A stretch of 64,000 nucleotides of DNA. Source: Rikenellaceae bacterium. GTDB lineage: Bacteria; Bacteroidota; Bacteroidia; Bacteroidales; Rikenellaceae. The translations under genes were made by a program, and so were the position numbers. The notes beneath the pieces were generated by a model. It was not told the DNA's origin and searched no databases. It saw only the letters and a list, made by a program, of their open reading frames with translations. The stretch is taken from the NCBI GenBank assembly GCA_015059925.1, contig SUZL01000002.1, positions 62,001-126,000 of the forward strand. The letters are read 5' to 3'. Shown one piece after another: positions 15,318 through 44,455 of the stretch (position 1 is the stretch's first letter; each line of letters starts with the position of its first letter).

Positions 15318-15327
15318 TATCTTTGCC
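15318..15327 (+). promoter_or_regulatory. Bacteroidetes -7 promoter element for the purE leader
   Basis: TATCTTTGC matches TAnnTTTGC. Confidence 0.6.
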
Positions 15328-15340
15328 GATAGTTATAAAA

Positions 15341-15508
15341 ATGCCCTCGAAATGGCTAAAAAACCAACCGCTACTAATCGACTCCACATTGCAGGATCTG
15401 TTGCCAAGCATCGGAGCGTTGCGGTGTGTGTTGATGCAAAAGCGAGAAATAGTTGATTTTAAGTATAATAGTGGCCGTTGCACGCAGTTGCAGCGGCTGC
15501 GTTTTTAA
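15341..15508 (+). CDS. Candidate leader peptide ORF (55 codons) upstream of purE
   Basis: First ATG after the -7 box; [55 protein letters not shown]; reads through the terminator and stops in its T-run. Confidence 0.4.
15474..15506 (+). promoter_or_regulatory. Candidate attenuator: overlapping alternative hairpins upstream of purE
   Basis: GCCGTTGC(15474-15481)/GCAGCGGC(15490-15497) versus ACGCAG(15482-15487)/CTGCGT(15497-15502) plus TTTTT. Confidence 0.5.
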
Positions 15509-15525
15509 CATTACACATTGATAAT

Positions 15526-15993
15526 ATGAAAGTTGCAGTTATTATGGGCTCTACGAGCGACTGGGGCGTAATGTCGGCCGCTTGCGAGACTTTGGAGGAG
15601 TTGGGAATCGAGTACGAGAAACGAGTTATCAGCGCACACCGCACACCCCACCTGATGGTGGAGTATGCCGAGTCGGCTAAGGAGCGTGGCATCGGCGCTA
15701 TCATCGCAGGTGCTGGCGGAGCAGCTCACGTTGCTGGCGTAACGGCCGCCCTGACTACCGTGCCCGTGATTGGCGTACCTATCAAGACCTCGGCTCTCGG
15801 CGGTCTGGACTCACTGCTCTCAATCGTGCAGATGCCCGGCGGAATCCCCGTATCAACCACCGCAATCAACGGCGCAAAGAATGCTGCCCTGATCGCAGCT
15901 TCGATCTTCGCCCTGACGGACAAGGAGCTTGAGGCCCGTCTTGTGGCTTTCCGCAAGGCACAGACCGAGAAGGTTCTCGAGGCTGAGTTGTAA
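15526..15993 (+). CDS. purE: N5-carboxyaminoimidazole ribonucleotide mutase
   Basis: [16 protein letters not shown]...SAHRTP...[13 protein letters not shown]. Confidence 0.97.
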
Positions 15994-27628: not shown

Positions 27629-28717
27629 TTAATTATTCTTAACTCTTGCCTCGCAGTATGCACAGCGATAGCCATCCTCGGTCTGGTGGAACAGATGATC
27701 GACATCCTCCGTCGCCGACACGCACTGGCGGTTGCTACAACGCCAATCGTTGCGTACCAACTCATCACCCAAGCGCGGTGTAAGGCCCTCGGCGGGGCTC
27801 TCCTGCGCCCACTGCAGCAACGTGTAAATCAGCGCCATACGCACAAACTTACCATTCTCCACCTGACGGAAATAGGCAGCACGGGGATCGTTATCCACCG
27901 CGCGCGTGATCTCATTCACGCGGGGCAGCGGGTGCAGCACGATCATATCCTTCTTCGCTAGCTGCATACGCTCGGGATTTAGAATAAAGCTATCCTTCAG
28001 ACGCTCAAACTCCTCCTCGTCCAGAAAACGCTCCTTCTGCACGCGCGTCATATAGAGAATATCCAACTCGGGCAAAACCTCCTCCATAGTCGAAACCTCG
28101 CGCGTGGGAACATTGTTCTTGTCGCACACTTCACGACGTATGTATGAGGGCAGGCGCAACTCCTCGGGAGCGATCAGCACCACGTTGATATTCTCGTAGC
28201 GCGACATCGCCTTGATGAGCGAGTGTACCGTACGACCAAACTTCAAATCACCGCAGAAGCCGATGGTAAGATTATCCAGACGGCCCTTCTCGCGACGGAT
28301 CGTCAGCAGGTCGGTCAGCGTCTGCGTGGGGTGGGCGTGGCTGCCATCACCAGCGTTGATGATGGGCACATCGGCATAGTGCGATGCCACCAGCGGCGCA
28401 CCCTCCTTGCTGTGGCGCATAGCAATAATATCGGCAAAGCAACCGATCACTCGCACCGTATCGGCCACCGTCTCGCCCTTGGTTACAGACGACGACGCGG
28501 CATCCGAGAAACCCAACACATTGCCGCCCAGCTCCATCATTGCCGACGTAAAGCTCAGGCGCGTACGCGTACTCGGCTCGTAGAAGAGCGTTGCGAGTTT
28601 CTTGCCCTTACATACAGAGCTGTACTTCTCGCGATTCTCGATAATATCGAGTGCTGTGTTGATAATACGATCAACCTCGGCAACCGAGATATCCGTTGTA
28701 TCGATTAAGTGTCGCAT
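27629..28717 (-). CDS. pyrB: Aspartate carbamoyltransferase catalytic chain with C-terminal PyrI-type zinc domain
   Basis: [32 protein letters not shown]-terminus CSNRQC...CAYCE resembles the E. coli PyrI zinc domain CPNSNC...CKYCE. Confidence 0.93.
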
Positions 28718-36968: not shown

Positions 36969-37005
36969 CAAAAAAATCCGCCAACCCATCGGGCCGGCGG
37001 ACTCT
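36969..37005 (-). terminator. Intrinsic terminator of the pyr operon
   Basis: - strand GTCCGCCGGCCCGATGGGTTGGCGGATTTTTTTG. Confidence 0.8.
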
Positions 37006-37022: not shown

Positions 37023-37949
37023 TTACTTCACAATGCCAATAATATCGCTCAGACGCTCAATACCCAGACGCTCCATCTCTGCGGGCAAATCCTCGATGAT
37101 TCGCTTGCAGGCGTAGGGATCCTTCAGATTGGCAGCACCCACCTGCACCGTCGTAGCACCCGCCATCATCATCTCGATAACGTCCGATGCACTCTCCACG
37201 CCACCGCATCCCATCACGGGAATCGAGCAGGCGTTAGCCACCTGATATACCATACGCACCGCTACGGGGAAGATCGCAGGGCCCGAGAAACCACCCATCT
37301 TATTGGCGATAACGGGACGGCGACGCTTAGTGTCGATACGCATACCCAGCAACGTGTTAATCAAGCAGATACCATCAGCTCCCGCCTCCTCGCAAGCCTT
37401 CGCAATTGCTACGATATCGGTTACATTGGGGCTGAGCTTGATGAATATGGGCTTGGTCGTTACGGCTTTCACGGCGCGCGTAACCTCGGCCGCCATCTCG
37501 GGCTGCGTACCGAAACTCATACCGCCATTATGCACATTGGGGCACGATACGTTCACCTCGATGATTGCCACCTGCTCCTCCTTATCGACCTTCGCGCAAC
37601 ACTCGGCATACTCCTCGATCGAGAAGCCGCTGATGTTGGCCACGATAGGCTTATGGAAAATCTCGCGCAACGCGGGCAACTCCTTCGCCACAACAGCATC
37701 CACACCCGGATTCTGCAAACCCACCGAGTTTATCAGTCCCGAACGGCACTCGGCAATACGGGGCGTGGGGTTACCGAAACGCGCCTCGCGCGTCGTTCCC
37801 TTGATAGATATCGAGCCGAGGATGTTGATATCGTAGAACTCATTATGCTCACGACCGAAACCAAACGTTCCACTCGCAGGAATAACGGGGTTGTCCAGCT
37901 TCACGCCGCACAACTCAACCGACAAATCAAATTTCTTATCCATATCCAT
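37023..37949 (-). CDS. pyrD: Dihydroorotate dehydrogenase catalytic subunit (class 1B)
   Basis: NPVIPASGTFGFG, NVSCPNVHNGG, IPVMGCGGVESASDVIEMMMAGA. Confidence 0.95.
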   Translation of the reverse strand: MDMDKKFDLSVELCGVKLDNPVIPASGTFGFGREHNEFYDINILGSISIKGTTREARFGNPTPRIAECRSGLINSVGLQNPGVDAVVAKELPALREIFHKPIVANISGFSIEEYAECCAKVDKEEQVAIIEVNVSCPNVHNGGMSFGTQPEMAAEVTRAVKAVTTKPIFIKLSPNVTDIVAIAKACEEAGADGICLINTLLGMRIDTKRRRPVIANKMGGFSGPAIFPVAVRMVYQVANACSIPVMGCGGVESASDVIEMMMAGATTVQVGAANLKDPYACKRIIEDLPAEMERLGIERLSDIIGIVK

Positions 37950-37954
37950 CCTCC

Positions 37955-38695
37955 TTACCAGATTATCTCTTCACGTTTCATTACGGGGCCCTCCTTGCAG
38001 ATGCGTTTGTTGCCCGTCAGCGTCTTGCAGCTGCAACCCATACAAGCGCCGAAGCCGCAACCCATACGCTCCTCGAACGAGAGCTCACCGCTCACCGTCG
38101 TATTGTCGCACAGCGCCTTAAGCATCGGCAGCGGACCGCACGAGTAGAAGTAGTCGAACTCTACCTCACCCTCACGAATTGCATCCGTCACAAAGCCCTT
38201 CGTACCAACCGAGCCATCGGCCGTCGAGATATATACCTCTGCACCCAACGCACGGAACTCGTCGGCATAGAAGATCTCTTTAGCGGTGTTGAAGCCCAGC
38301 ACTACGCTCACCTTCTTGCCGCGAGCCAGCAGCTCCTTGGCCAGACGATAGAGTGGTGGAACACCCACACCGCCGCCCACCAGCAGCGGACGCTCGCACT
38401 CGACATCGACATCGAAGCCATTGCCGAGTCCCGTCAGCACATCCAGCTCCTCGCCAGACGTCATACGGCTCATCTGCTCCGTACCACGACCTACGACCTT
38501 GTAGATGATGGTGATGGTATTCTCCGTCCAATCGTTGATCGAGATGGGACGACGCAGATACAACCCCTCGAGCTCGATATTCACGAACTGTCCCGGACGG
38601 CTGATCCACTGCGTATCACCCTCGAGCACCATACGCCAGACATCTGACGTAAGGGGCTCGTTGGCAACGATTTTATAGATTCCTTTCTTATACAT
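37955..38695 (-). CDS. pyrK: Dihydroorotate dehydrogenase electron transfer subunit
   Basis: FAD/2Fe-2S protein; MGCGFGACMGCSCKT cysteine motif; start set at MYKKGIYK. Confidence 0.93.
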   Translation of the reverse strand: MYKKGIYKIVANEPLTSDVWRMVLEGDTQWISRPGQFVNIELEGLYLRRPISINDWTENTITIIYKVVGRGTEQMSRMTSGEELDVLTGLGNGFDVDVECERPLLVGGGVGVPPLYRLAKELLARGKKVSVVLGFNTAKEIFYADEFRALGAEVYISTADGSVGTKGFVTDAIREGEVEFDYFYSCGPLPMLKALCDNTTVSGELSFEERMGCGFGACMGCSCKTLTGNKRICKEGPVMKREEIIW

Positions 38696-38696
38696 A

Positions 38697-41600
38697 TTAC
38701 TTACCATCGATGGTTGATACTCCAAGCGTAATCTCCTCCAGCACGTCGAGCAACACGCTCACGGTCTCCAGCGCCGTAAAGAGCGTTACGTTGTTCTCGG
38801 CCGCAGCACGACGGATCTCATAACCGTCGCGGCGGGTGCTGTGCTGATTCACATCGATAGTATTGATAACGTAGGTAACGTGGCCCTTGCGCAACTCGTC
38901 GTAGATCTCGGTGCTACCCTCGCTGATCTTTCTCAGGTGGCGGGTACGCACACCGTGGTTACGCAGGAACTCGCACGTTCCTCCCGTAGCCTCGATATTG
39001 AAACCGAGGTCGTAGAAGCGGCGGATGAGCGGCAGAGCGCGCTCCTTATCCACGTCGGCAATCGTAACGAAGATCGTACCGTAGTTAGCTACGGCCACGC
39101 CCGACGACTGCAGCGACTTGTAGAGCGCCCGCGTCAGACTCTTGTCGTATCCGATAGCCTCACCCGTCGATTTCATCTCGGGCGAGAGGTATGAATCCAC
39201 ACCGCGAATCTTGGCAAACGAGAAGGCTGGCGACTTAACGAACCAACGCGTGCTCTCCTTGCCATAAACCTCCGTGATACCCTGCTCGCGCAGCGAGTGG
39301 CCGAGGATGACCATCGTAGCGATCTTCGCCATAGGCACACCCGTCGATTTAGAGAGGAAGGGAACGGTACGCGACGAACGGGGGTTCACCTCGATCACGA
39401 ATACCTTATCCTGCTCATCCACAATGAACTGTATATTGAACAGACCAACGATTCCGATTGCCAATCCCAGACGCTGCGTGTACTCGATGATGGTATCCTT
39501 CACCTGCTGGCTTACGCTGAAGGTAGGATAAACGCTGATTGAGTCTCCAGAGTGGATACCCGTACGCTCGACGTGCTCCATAATGCCGGGGATGAATACA
39601 TCCTTGCCATCGCAGATTGCATCAACCTCCAACTCCTTACCCTGAATATACTTATCGACCAGCACGGGCGACTTCTCATTAATCTCAACGGCCGAGCGCA
39701 GGTAGTGGCGCAGAGTCTCCTCATTACCCACGATCTGCATCGCACGACCACCCAGCACGAAGCTCGGACGCACCAATACGGGGTAGCCGATACGAGCTGC
39801 AGCCTCGACACCTGCCTCGATGTCCGTAACGGCCTTAGCCTGAGGCTGCGGGATGCCCACCTCGTTCATAATGCGCTCGAAGCACTTGCGATCCTCGGCG
39901 TTGTTGATGGCGTCGATACCCGTACCGATAATCTTAACGCCCAGCTCAGCCAAAGGCTCCGCGAGATTGATTGCGGTCTGACCACCGAGCGATACAACGA
40001 TACCCTCGGGCTGCTCCAGCTCCACAACATTCATCACATCCTCCACGGTCAGCGGCTCGAAGTAGAGCTTGTCGCTGATGGTGTAGTCCGTCGAAACGGT
40101 CTCGGGGTTATTGTTGATGATGATAGCCTCGTAGCCGGCCTCCTTGATGGTCCAGATGGCGTGTACGGTCGAGTAGTCGAACTCCACACCTTGACCGATA
40201 CGAATCGGGCCCGAACCCAGCACCAGAATCTTCTTGCGGTCGCTTCTTATAGACTCGTTCTCAGCCTCATAAGTCGAGTAGAAGTAGGGTACATAGGTAT
40301 CGATCTCACCGGCACACGAGTCGATAATCTTATAAACGGGGAATACATTCTCCTTCTTACGCAGCAGATATACCTCCGCCTCGGTCATTCCCCACAGCTG
40401 GCCGATGAACTTATCGCTGAAGCCCATACGCTTGGCCTCCTTGAGCGTTGCAACGCAACCCACATTGGCCGCCACAACCTTCTCCATCTCGACGATGTTC
40501 TTGAACTTCTCGAGGAACAACATATCGATCTTGGTGTGGTTGTAGATAATCAGCAGATCCACACCCTTGCGAATGAGCTGTGCGATGGCGTGCATACGAT
40601 CGTCCGTACCCTTGCGGATGTACTCCAGCAGCGAGTCGGTGCTCCAGTCGTCAAATTTCTTATTGTGGATGTGGCAAACACCCGTCTCGAGCGAGCGCAC
40701 AGCCTTGAGGATACCCTCCTCGATTGTGCGACCGATGCTCATCACCTCACCCGTAGCCTTCATCTGCGTACCCAGCTCGTTCGATGCGTCGCTGAACTTA
40801 TCGAACGGGAAACGTGCAACCTTCAGCACAACGTAATCCAACGCGGGCTCGAAGCAGGCAGGACGATCCGAGATCATAATCTCGTCGAGGGTCAAACCTA
40901 CGGCAATTTTCGCCGTAACGCGAGCGATCGGAAAACCGCTGGCCTTCGATGCCAGAGCCGACGAACGCGACACGCGGGGATTCACCTCGATGATATAATA
41001 CTTGAACGAGAGGGGATCCAGCGCAAACTGCACGTTGCAACCACCCTCGATCTTGAGCTCGCGGATAATCTTCAGAGCGCTATCACGCAGCAGCTGATAC
41101 TCCGTGTCGGTCAGCGTCTGCGCGGGAGCGATAACCATCGAGTCGCCCGTGTGAATACCTACGGGGTCGATGTTCTCCATACTACAAATTGCGATGGCCG
41201 TATCGTTCTTATCGCGCATCACCTCGAACTCAATCTCCTTGTAGCCCTTGATACTCTTCTCGACCAAAACCTGATGTACGGGCGAGAGAATCAGAGCGTT
41301 ACGCATAATCTCGCGCAGCTCCTCCTCGTTGTCGGCAAAACCGCCACCCGTACCACCCAGCGTAAATGCGGGACGCAACACTACGGGATAACCGATCTGC
41401 TCGGCAGCCTTCACACCATCCTCCATCGAATTCACCACCAGCGAGGGCAGCACGGGCTCGCCGATTCTTACGCACAACTCCTTGAAGAGCTCGCGGTCCT
41501 CAGCCTCCTCGATACTCTTGAACGAGGTACCCAGAATCTCAACGTGACACTCATCCAAAACGCCCTTCTTGGCCAACTGCACAGCCAGATTCAGACCTGT

Positions 41601-41879
41601 CTGACCACCCAAACCCGGCACGATAGCGTCGGGACGCTCGAAGCGCACGATCTTGGCAACATACTCCAGCGTCAAAGGCTCCATATATACCTTATCGGCG
41701 ATGTTCGTATCGGTCATAATTGTTGCGGGGTTCGAGTTGGCGAGGATAACCTCATAACCCTCCTCCTTAAGTGCGAGGCACGCCTGCGTTCCTGCATAGT
41801 CGAACTCTGCGGCCTGACCGATGACAATCGGACCTGAGCCGATCACCATCACTTTCTTGATATCTGTTCTCTTAGGCAT
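38697..41879 (-). CDS. carB: Carbamoyl-phosphate synthase large subunit
   Basis: 1060 aa; VMVIGSGPIVIGQAAEFDYAGTQAC; duplicated ATP-grasp domains. Confidence 0.98.
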   Translation of the reverse strand: MPKRTDIKKVMVIGSGPIVIGQAAEFDYAGTQACLALKEEGYEVILANSNPATIMTDTNIADKVYMEPLTLEYVAKIVRFERPDAIVPGLGGQTGLNLAVQLAKKGVLDECHVEILGTSFKSIEEAEDRELFKELCVRIGEPVLPSLVVNSMEDGVKAAEQIGYPVVLRPAFTLGGTGGGFADNEEELREIMRNALILSPVHQVLVEKSIKGYKEIEFEVMRDKNDTAIAICSMENIDPVGIHTGDSMVIAPAQTLTDTEYQLLRDSALKIIRELKIEGGCNVQFALDPLSFKYYIIEVNPRVSRSSALASKASGFPIARVTAKIAVGLTLDEIMISDRPACFEPALDYVVLKVARFPFDKFSDASNELGTQMKATGEVMSIGRTIEEGILKAVRSLETGVCHIHNKKFDDWSTDSLLEYIRKGTDDRMHAIAQLIRKGVDLLIIYNHTKIDMLFLEKFKNIVEMEKVVAANVGCVATLKEAKRMGFSDKFIGQLWGMTEAEVYLLRKKENVFPVYKIIDSCAGEIDTYVPYFYSTYEAENESIRSDRKKILVLGSGPIRIGQGVEFDYSTVHAIWTIKEAGYEAIIINNNPETVSTDYTISDKLYFEPLTVEDVMNVVELEQPEGIVVSLGGQTAINLAEPLAELGVKIIGTGIDAINNAEDRKCFERIMNEVGIPQPQAKAVTDIEAGVEAAARIGYPVLVRPSFVLGGRAMQIVGNEETLRHYLRSAVEINEKSPVLVDKYIQGKELEVDAICDGKDVFIPGIMEHVERTGIHSGDSISVYPTFSVSQQVKDTIIEYTQRLGLAIGIVGLFNIQFIVDEQDKVFVIEVNPRSSRTVPFLSKSTGVPMAKIATMVILGHSLREQGITEVYGKESTRWFVKSPAFSFAKIRGVDSYLSPEMKSTGEAIGYDKSLTRALYKSLQSSGVAVANYGTIFVTIADVDKERALPLIRRFYDLGFNIEATGGTCEFLRNHGVRTRHLRKISEGSTEIYDELRKGHVTYVINTIDVNQHSTRRDGYEIRRAAAENNVTLFTALETVSVLLDVLEEITLGVSTIDGK

Positions 41880-42960
41880 TTTGTTTCTCCTCCATCAGTT
41901 TAATGAATTTATCGAAAAGATATGCGCAATCGTGCGGACCCGGAGCGCTCTCGGGGTGGAACTGCAGTGCATAAACCTTGTCCTCGGCGCACTCCACACC
42001 CTCGATAGTCTTATCGAGAACATTCTCGTGCGTAACCTGAAGGCGCGTAGCGGCAATCGACTCTGCATCCACAACGTAGCCGTGATTCTGCGAAGCCATA
42101 TCGATGCGGCCCGTTTGAAGATCGCGCACAGCCGCAGAGCCGTGGTGGCCACACTTCATCTTATACACCTTGGCGCCATACGCCAGCGAGATAAGCTGCA
42201 TACCGAGCGACACACCGAACAGAGGAATCTTTCCCTCCACAGCCTTGATCAGCTCCACAACCTCGGGCAGAGCCTCGGGCGAGCCCGGACCGTTTGAGAT
42301 GAAGATACCGTCGGGATTGAATGCCATAATCTCCTCGAGCGTGGTGTTGTAGGGCACAACCGTTACGTTGCAGCCGCGATTGTTGAACTGGCGGATCATA
42401 CTATACTTGATACCGCAATCAACAGCCACGATGTCGTACTTATGGTTGGGCGTACGCGAGAACCAGCGCTTGGTGCTGCTCACCTTAGCCACCTGATTCT
42501 GGGGCAGGGGAGTGTTCTTAATCATCTCGAGTGCCTGCTCCGTCGTAGTATCGATATTTACGATTGCTGCGCGCTGCACACCCTCGTCGCGGATGATGCG
42601 CACGATCATACGCGTATCTACACCAGCGATGCAGGGGATACCCGCCTCGTCCAAAGTCTCCGAGAAGGTCTTTGTGTAGCGGAAGTTGCTGGGGTTCTCG
42701 TTGCACTCGCGCACAACCATACCTCCCACCTGAGGAGTCTTCGACTCGAAGTCCTCGTCCGTAATACCATAGTTACCGATCAGCGGGTAAGCCATCACCA
42801 CGATCTGATCGATGCACGAGGGATCGGAGAGAATCTCCTGATAACCCACCACCGAGGTGTTGAAAATGATCTCGCACACACGCTCCACCGAGGCACCATA
42901 GCCATAACCGAGGAACTCGCGACCATTCTCAAGAACTAACTTTTTTGTAAATGGTTTCAT
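41872..42960 (-). CDS. carA: Carbamoyl-phosphate synthase small subunit
   Basis: CPSase small-chain N-domain plus GATase-like domain; overlaps carB by 8 bp. Confidence 0.95.
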   Translation of the reverse strand: MKPFTKKLVLENGREFLGYGYGASVERVCEIIFNTSVVGYQEILSDPSCIDQIVVMAYPLIGNYGITDEDFESKTPQVGGMVVRECNENPSNFRYTKTFSETLDEAGIPCIAGVDTRMIVRIIRDEGVQRAAIVNIDTTTEQALEMIKNTPLPQNQVAKVSSTKRWFSRTPNHKYDIVAVDCGIKYSMIRQFNNRGCNVTVVPYNTTLEEIMAFNPDGIFISNGPGSPEALPEVVELIKAVEGKIPLFGVSLGMQLISLAYGAKVYKMKCGHHGSAAVRDLQTGRIDMASQNHGYVVDAESIAATRLQVTHENVLDKTIEGVECAEDKVYALQFHPESAPGPHDCAYLFDKFIKLMEEKQNA

Positions 42961-42987: not shown

Positions 42988-44265
42988 TTATCTCTTTTCA
43001 TACGCTACGCGGCCATCGACCAGCGTCAGGCAGCACTCGCCCTGCAACTCCCAACCCTCGAACGGGGTACTGCGTCCCTTCGAGAGGAAGGTCTCGGGAT
43101 CGACCGTAAATCTACTCTCCAGATCGAACACCGCAATGTCGGCAGCCTCACCCACGCGCAAGCCACCGCCCATATTGAATATTCGGCGCGGAGCCTCGGC
43201 CATCACCTCGACAGCCTTCTCGAGCGAGATCACACCCTGCATAACGAGCTTCGTATAGATCACCGCAAACGAGGTCTCAAGGCCTACAACACCCATTGCA
43301 CTGAACTCCAATCCGCGCGACTTCTCCTCGGCCGTATGGGGCGCGTGATCCGTCGCCACAACGTCGATCGTACCATCCTGCAATCCTGCGACAAGCGCCT
43401 CGCGATCCTCGGCCGAACGAATCGGGGGATTCATCTTAAAGCGTCCCTCCTCCTTCAGATCCATATCGCACATCGTCAGATAGTGGGGACCCGTCTCGCA
43501 GGTGATCTTCACACCTCGGGCTTTGGCCTGACGAATCAGCTCAACGCTCTCCTTTGTCGAGATGTGGCATACGTGATAACGGCAATCGGCCTTTGCAGCC
43601 AGCTCAATATCGCGCTCGATCTGTCGCCACTCGCTCTCCGAGCAGATTCCTCTATGGCCATTGAGTCGTGCATACTCGCCATCGTGAATATATCCTTTAC
43701 GCAGAAGCTCATTCACCTCGCAGTGTGCTGCAATGATAGCTCCCGTGCGTGCCGCCTCGGCCATAGCCGCCTGCATCACCTCGTCGCTCTGCACGCCGCT
43801 GCCGTCATCCGAGAAGCCTGCAACATAGGGCTTGAGCTGCTCGAAATCTACCAACTCACGGCCGTAACGCTTACGCGTGATGGTGGCGTAGGGCAGCACC
43901 TTAACCACAGCGTCGCGCTCGATCAACTGCAACTGCTGCTGCAGCGTCTCCACCGCATCGGGCGCAGGCTCAAGGTTGGGCATCGAACACACCATCGTAA
44001 AACCGCCGTGCGCCGCAGCCGCCGTGCCCGTTGCTATGGTCTCCTTTGCCGAGAATCCCGGCTCACGCAGATGGACGTGCAGATCGACCAATCCGCTCAT
44101 TACGACCTTGCCCTCGCAGTCATAGACGCGATCGCCCTCAGCTGGCTCGATGTTGGCCTCGATACGCTCAATTCGACCATCAACGACAGCCACATCGGCC
44201 ATCTCGGCCACGCCGTCGTGAATGATTTTTCCACCTTTAAGTATAATCTTTTCGCTCATATCCAT
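42988..44265 (-). CDS. pyrC: Dihydroorotase
   Basis: GLVDLHVHLREPGFSAKETIATGTAAAAHGGFT; VVATDHAPHTAEEK. Confidence 0.95.
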   Translation of the reverse strand: MDMSEKIILKGGKIIHDGVAEMADVAVVDGRIERIEANIEPAEGDRVYDCEGKVVMSGLVDLHVHLREPGFSAKETIATGTAAAAHGGFTMVCSMPNLEPAPDAVETLQQQLQLIERDAVVKVLPYATITRKRYGRELVDFEQLKPYVAGFSDDGSGVQSDEVMQAAMAEAARTGAIIAAHCEVNELLRKGYIHDGEYARLNGHRGICSESEWRQIERDIELAAKADCRYHVCHISTKESVELIRQAKARGVKITCETGPHYLTMCDMDLKEEGRFKMNPPIRSAEDREALVAGLQDGTIDVVATDHAPHTAEEKSRGLEFSAMGVVGLETSFAVIYTKLVMQGVISLEKAVEVMAEAPRRIFNMGGGLRVGEAADIAVFDLESRFTVDPETFLSKGRSTPFEGWELQGECCLTLVDGRVAYEKR

Positions 44266-44269
44266 TTAC

Positions 44270-44294
44270 AAAAAGGGCGACCAAACAGTCGCCC
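44270..44294 (-). terminator. Intrinsic terminator in the pyrC leader (candidate attenuator)
   Basis: - strand GGGCGAC-TGTTTG-GTCGCCC-TTTTT ending 4 nt before the pyrC ATG. Confidence 0.85.
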
Positions 44295-44300
44295 AATATA

Positions 44301-44426
44301 TCAACAATAAAAAACAGTAGTAACGTCGTTCTGAAATTCAACCGTAGATGCCGAGAAACAATAACCCACTTGCTTAACCTCAGATGGTTGCGCCCACGAT
44401 GGAGATATGTTTCGACTCTGTTTCAT
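44301..44426 (-). CDS. Candidate 41-aa leader peptide of the pyrC-carAB-pyrKD operon
   Basis: MKQSRNISPSWAQPSEVKQVGYCFSASTVEFQNDVTTVFYC*; first ATG after the predicted TSS; TGA lies 6 nt before the terminator stem. Confidence 0.6.
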   Translation of the reverse strand: MKQSRNISPSWAQPSEVKQVGYCFSASTVEFQNDVTTVFYC

Positions 44427-44446
44427 TTCGACCTTATTTATTTCGT

Positions 44447-44455
44447 GCAAAGATA
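44447..44455 (-). promoter_or_regulatory. -7 promoter element of the pyrC operon
   Basis: - strand TATCTTTGC matches TAnnTTTGC. Confidence 0.65.

Follow-up and report, generated by a model that had tools for sequence, protein, structure and literature searches.

Five genes of pyrimidine synthesis lie in a row on the minus strand of the window (the whole 64,000-nt stretch of DNA analysed here, from a gut bacterium of the genus Alistipes), and the short region ahead of the first of them, pyrC, holds a promoter box, a small leader ORF, a U-rich tract and a terminator-like hairpin. Operon genes were identified with NCBIfam profiles, while the elements ahead of pyrC were read directly from the DNA:

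44447 to 44455, minus strand: -7 promoter box TATCTTTGC, Bacteroidetes type; predicted transcription start at about 44443
44301 to 44426, minus strand: leader ORF of 41 codons, MKQSRNISPSWAQPSEVKQVGYCFSASTVEFQNDVTTVFYC and stop (ATG at 44426, TGA at 44303-44301)
44295 to 44318, minus strand: U-rich tract ACTGTTTTTTATTGTTGATATATT, overlapping the final codons of the leader as well as the 6-nt spacer
44275 to 44294, minus strand: putative attenuator terminator hairpin GGGCGACTGTTTGGTCGCCC, stem GGGCGAC/GTCGCCC
44270 to 44274, minus strand: T-run of the putative attenuator
42988 to 44265, minus strand: pyrC, dihydroorotase (TIGR00857, 413.6 bits, cut-off 279)
41872 to 42960, minus strand: carA, carbamoyl-phosphate synthase small subunit (TIGR01368)
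38697 to 41879, minus strand: carB, carbamoyl-phosphate synthase large subunit (TIGR01369)
37955 to 38725, minus strand: pyrK-like dihydroorotate dehydrogenase electron-transfer subunit (NF000799, 249 bits, below the cut-off of 314)
37023 to 37949, minus strand: pyrD, class 1 dihydroorotate dehydrogenase (NF005574 and TIGR01037, above cut-off)
36973 to 37005, minus strand: likely operon-end terminator after pyrD (15-pair stem and T-run)

The box, leader ORF, U-rich stretch, terminator and pyrC ATG (44265) are all found on the minus strand where the initial annotation had placed them. The stem, of 8 pairs if T-G is counted, starts 6 nt past the leader stop, exactly the spacing claimed, and the T-run ends 4 nt upstream of the pyrC ATG. 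The leader ATG, said to follow the start of transcription by about 15 nt, is present and on re-measurement lies 17 nt past it, with the predicted start set 12 nt from the start of the box; in Flavobacterium psychrophilum the -7 box occupies positions -12 to -5 (PMC9723704). The arrangement is rare in this genome: in a scan of 364 kb, only two of 69 strong hairpins, those before pyrC and purE, have a box together with a short ORF that ends at the hairpin, and the pyrC hairpin, with 18 T among the 30 nt that precede the stem, is joint highest among the 69.

In the second pyrimidine operon of the window, pyrF-pyrE-pyrB (30086-27629), the 5' UTR is short and neither leader nor hairpin is found there. 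The PyrB of this operon (27629-28717, minus strand) carries a C-terminal zinc domain of the PyrI type (PF02748, 32.3 bits) while the PyrI allosteric domain is absent, and the operon is followed by a purT/purK-like ATP-grasp gene.

Conservation of the layout in Alistipes and its relatives

A search with the pyrC protein gave matches in 147 of 151 genomes of the same genus, and the upstream regions compared comprise 31 from loci and 60 newly fetched by coordinate; loci of the close group are labelled Alistipes sp. or Rikenellaceae bacterium. In every locus compared, pyrC, carA and carB follow one another in this order. At a fixed score, a terminator-like hairpin is present upstream of pyrC in 58 of the 60 newly fetched regions, as against 1.2% of dinucleotide shuffles, and the two misses are a region cut by the contig end (L099) and one with a hairpin that has one mismatch by eye (L091). 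Among 88 related hairpin-bearing loci, 87 have a TAnnTTTG box 85-185 nt upstream of the stem, and every one of these 87 has a leader ORF, which is found in 17% of shuffled leaders (an ORF was counted if it starts 17-50 nt from the start of the box and its stop ends between -11 and +37 nt from the start of the stem). The start codon is ATG in 80 cases and GTG in 7. The stem itself varies, with 43 distinct paired versions among relatives, and yet it is the sole conserved helix of the leader in the RNAalifold consensus fold of 24 relatives, which contains no antiterminator or pause hairpin; the z-score of the leader fold is -0.9.

The alignment of pyrC upstream regions proposed in the initial annotation thus finds leader ORF, U-tract and terminator kept together in the genus and in a sister genus, where five loci have the box, the ORF, the U-rich tract and hairpins of different stem sequence. 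Judged from these sequences, the attenuator layout before pyrC is a genus-wide feature, found in nearly all sampled relatives. At L041 the region upstream of pyrC holds repeated stretches in place of hairpin and leader, which is likely a local loss of the device or an insertion.

Further afield, the pyrC genes of 14 Rikenellaceae genomes from other genera have no such device, two of them having a hairpin in another setting; these proteins are about 30-37% identical and the genes stand in a different context. In other families of the order, where carA is about 40% identical, a strong hairpin lies within 420 nt upstream of carA in 8 of 29 cases. At three of these Bacteroidales loci (L135, L139 and L158) it is 47-109 nt upstream of carA, and two of the three have a promoter box some 100 nt ahead of the hairpin; these may possibly be further attenuators.

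Reading frame of the leader and base choice in the U-rich tract

In the window's clade the frame of the leader is never broken, with 42,708 positions in phase and 0 out of phase over all pairwise alignments, and substitutions fall evenly over the codon positions. The even spread argues that the peptide is not conserved in this clade and, since the frame is always kept, suggests that being translated matters more than the sequence of the peptide. Alistipes proper has an excess of third-position changes and a conserved AQxFWQQDYWSG motif (L044, L048, L060, L062, L069 and relatives), within which synonymous changes are seen. Between clades the peptides are wholly different, and none of the amino acids or codons in the leader's final eight positions is universal, the best being V at 78% and F at 64%. 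One-base differences near the end of the leader, which make the difference between VLLG-stop and FY-stop, leave both the U-tract and the position of the stop unchanged. That position is just upstream of the stem in the window's clade and others, at or inside the 5' arm in Alistipes proper, and in other relatives in the loop or beyond the entire hairpin (as in L039, L042, L049 and a few others). At every position observed, a ribosome close to the stop would be able to mask some of the hairpin.

The tract ahead of the stem is rich in T, which reaches 50-58% in the final 20 nt upstream of the stem in pyrC leaders. Over the 30 nt preceding the stem T makes up 49% in 45 non-redundant relatives and 27% before ordinary terminators (p 1e-15), the latter being strong ones from the source organism's genome only. 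This is also seen at synonymous sites. Over the final eight codons of the same 45 leaders the NNU:NNC ratio is 113:18, compared with 186:140 for the leader body (p 7e-10), and the pyrC genes themselves have 1005:945; at four-fold sites T is found in 91 of 157 cases in the leader tail and in 180 of 535 in the body (p 9e-8). Such synonymous choice indicates that it is the base, and not the amino acid, that is kept in the U-rich tract. The p-values are to be read as indicative, since the species are related to one another and a single genome supplied the ordinary terminators.

What does the leader sense, then? Leader-peptide attenuation could respond to a signal other than UTP, such as the rate of translation, an amino acid, or some metabolite with an effect on the nascent peptide, and both the motif conserved in Alistipes proper and the fact that carbamoyl phosphate, the product of carAB, also feeds arginine synthesis would fit with this. 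We consider it rather unlikely, as the last eight codons share no universal amino acid, peptides differ entirely between clades, U is selected at synonymous sites, and the VLLG-stop and FY-stop leaders retain the same tract and stop position. Amino-acid attenuation of the trp type was rejected as unlikely, since the tail has no run of regulatory codons and no universal codon, there is no conserved competing antiterminator, and in the window's clade the peptide is not conserved. A likeness of the Alistipes leader peptide to a fungal arginine attenuator peptide was dropped as coincidence.

A terminator-like structure alone can lower expression, and the hairpin might be simply a constitutive partial terminator that trims expression, with ORF and U-rich stretch having no role in sensing. 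This appears improbable, given that ORF, stop position and U-tract are jointly kept over dozens of divergent species although the stem itself changes (43 versions), and that the leader ORF is present at all 87 loci compared with 17% of shuffles. Control by a protein, either PyrR or another RNA-binding protein, or by a riboswitch is very improbable. PyrR attenuates the pyr operons of Bacillus, and the element resembles that system in the control of pyrimidine genes by a terminator, but there PyrR and a binding loop are needed and neither was found here. The six proteins of the phosphoribosyltransferase family found in this genome, which is 92% complete, are HGPRTase, PRPP synthetase, PyrE, Upp, ComF and XPRTase, so that PyrR is unlikely to act here. 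Nothing in the window reaches the gathering score in Rfam; at gathering score or E<=5 the leader region has no match, the PyrR element included, apart from weak sub-threshold ones to unrelated sRNAs and leaders that we judged to be chance, and the terminator is the only conserved helix. Promoter, ORF and terminator would also make a complete gene for a small functional protein, with pyrC served by another promoter, but this is just as improbable, for the window's clade shows no conservation of the peptide, the T-run 4 nt from the pyrC ATG leaves no space for a promoter downstream of the hairpin, and in several relatives the ORF crosses the hairpin.

A probable mechanism and its counterparts in other bacteria

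In enterobacterial pyrBI a leader ORF, a U-rich stretch and a terminator set expression through transcription-translation coupling that depends on UTP (PMC3641672), and experiments in E. coli show that the ribosome almost completely represses a terminator placed a few bp beyond a stop codon (PMC4824070). The match in layout to the former, taken with the repression seen in the latter, makes UTP-sensitive coupling the most likely explanation, and in our opinion the pyrC-carA-carB-pyrK-pyrD operon is probably attenuated in this way, by coupling of ribosome and RNA polymerase as in pyrBI or pyrE. The pyrBI-like reading of the initial annotation is therefore supported by the joint conservation of ORF, U-tract and terminator and by the preference for synonymous U, and antiterminator folding, a regulatory amino acid and PyrR, as alternatives, find no support. 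Translation of the leader, UTP-dependent pausing, coupling and the regulatory output are steps that we infer, as follows. RNA polymerase would start at about 44443 and a ribosome would begin the 41-codon leader. With ample UTP, the polymerase would cross the U-rich tract fast and outrun the ribosome, the GGGCGAC/GTCGCCC hairpin would form and transcription would stop before pyrC. With scarce UTP, the polymerase would slow in the tract, letting the ribosome catch up and, near the stop codon, cover the 5' arm of the stem; no hairpin would then form, and pyrC-carA-carB-pyrK-pyrD would be transcribed.

To our knowledge, tight coupling of transcription and translation is not established for Bacteroidota. 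Among 42 sampled ordinary genes of the source genome (stretches L160-L174 and the window), a strong terminator lies at most 9 nt past the stop in 13, several of these being convergent gene pairs with one common hairpin, and the main mode of the stop-to-terminator distance is 19-27 nt. Since ordinary terminators do occur within 9 nt of stops, proximity of the ribosome alone may not block termination, and the pausing step would be essential. The conservation of AQxFWQQDYWSG in Alistipes proper would not be required by a pyrBI-like model and appears to be unexplained by it.

Among the closest counterparts is pyrBI of E. coli and Salmonella (leader pyrL), where a short leader ORF likewise overlaps a U-rich stretch and the first pyrimidine gene is preceded by a terminator. 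In enterobacteria, however, pyrB-pyrI is controlled, whereas here it is pyrC-carAB-pyrKD from a promoter of the Bacteroidota type, and the ORF mostly ends within the stem or a short way ahead of it, while that of pyrBI runs through it, as do the ORFs of some relatives. In E. coli pyrE, the upstream ORF (rph/orfE) stops a few nt before the stem, with a U-rich tract ahead of the stem. The 6 nt in the window is similar, but the upstream ORF of pyrE is a full gene, rph, in contrast to the dedicated 41-codon leader here. Salmonella mgtM has an ATP-sensing leader with alternative stem-loops (PMC3641672); the level of a nucleotide is similarly read via the spacing of ribosome and polymerase, which in idea is nearer to the purE leader described below, but the alternative stem-loops and the gene set are different. 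The same layout on apparently unrelated sequence looks convergent with the enterobacterial element and, given the different first gene and phylum, convergence is the probable explanation, the pyrC leader and pyrL having been compared by layout.

The hints of leader peptides in Bacteroidota found in open-access papers are general ones and concern amino-acid operons in Flavobacterium psychrophilum and unassigned cases in B. thetaiotaomicron. We know of no earlier pyrBI-like UTP sensor in this phylum. The remark in the initial annotation that no description was known there agrees with our finding none in the open-access literature, most subscription literature being outside the search. If the proposed mechanism is true, this would be the first such sensor known to us in Bacteroidota and would imply a functional coupling between RNA polymerase and the leading ribosome in these bacteria; the pyrC attenuator would offer a natural reporter for testing this coupling.

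A leader-ORF attenuator candidate before purE

A second leader ORF with a terminator, separate from the pyr operon, precedes purE-purL (window 15318-15526, plus strand):

15341 to 15508, plus strand: purE leader ORF, running through the hairpin at 15471-15500
15526 to 15993, plus strand: purE (TIGR01162)

The arrangement is kept in much of the genus (L175-L177, L184, L185, L188-L210 and others) and is lost in L178-L180 and L186. All 32 purE loci of relatives that possess both box and hairpin also have a leader ORF that ends close to the stem, as against 25% of shuffles. The tract before the stem is not U-rich here, with 25% T compared with 49% at pyrC attenuators (p 3e-14), so U-richness is no general trait of leader attenuators in these bacteria and goes with the pyrimidine operon. 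Purines make up 65% before the purE stem and 38% before that of pyrC (p 2e-14). Against ordinary terminators (0.65 versus 0.57, p 1e-4) the excess is modest and mostly due to G, so the purE tract appears to be mildly purine-rich. We tentatively raise the possibility, itself doubtful, that Alistipes has paired nucleotide-sensing leader attenuators, a U-rich one for pyr (UTP) and a purine-rich one for purE (ATP or GTP), that arose independently of those in enterobacteria. In most cases the purE leader ORF begins 12-13 nt from the start of the box, which is the predicted first transcribed base, and would thus be leaderless.
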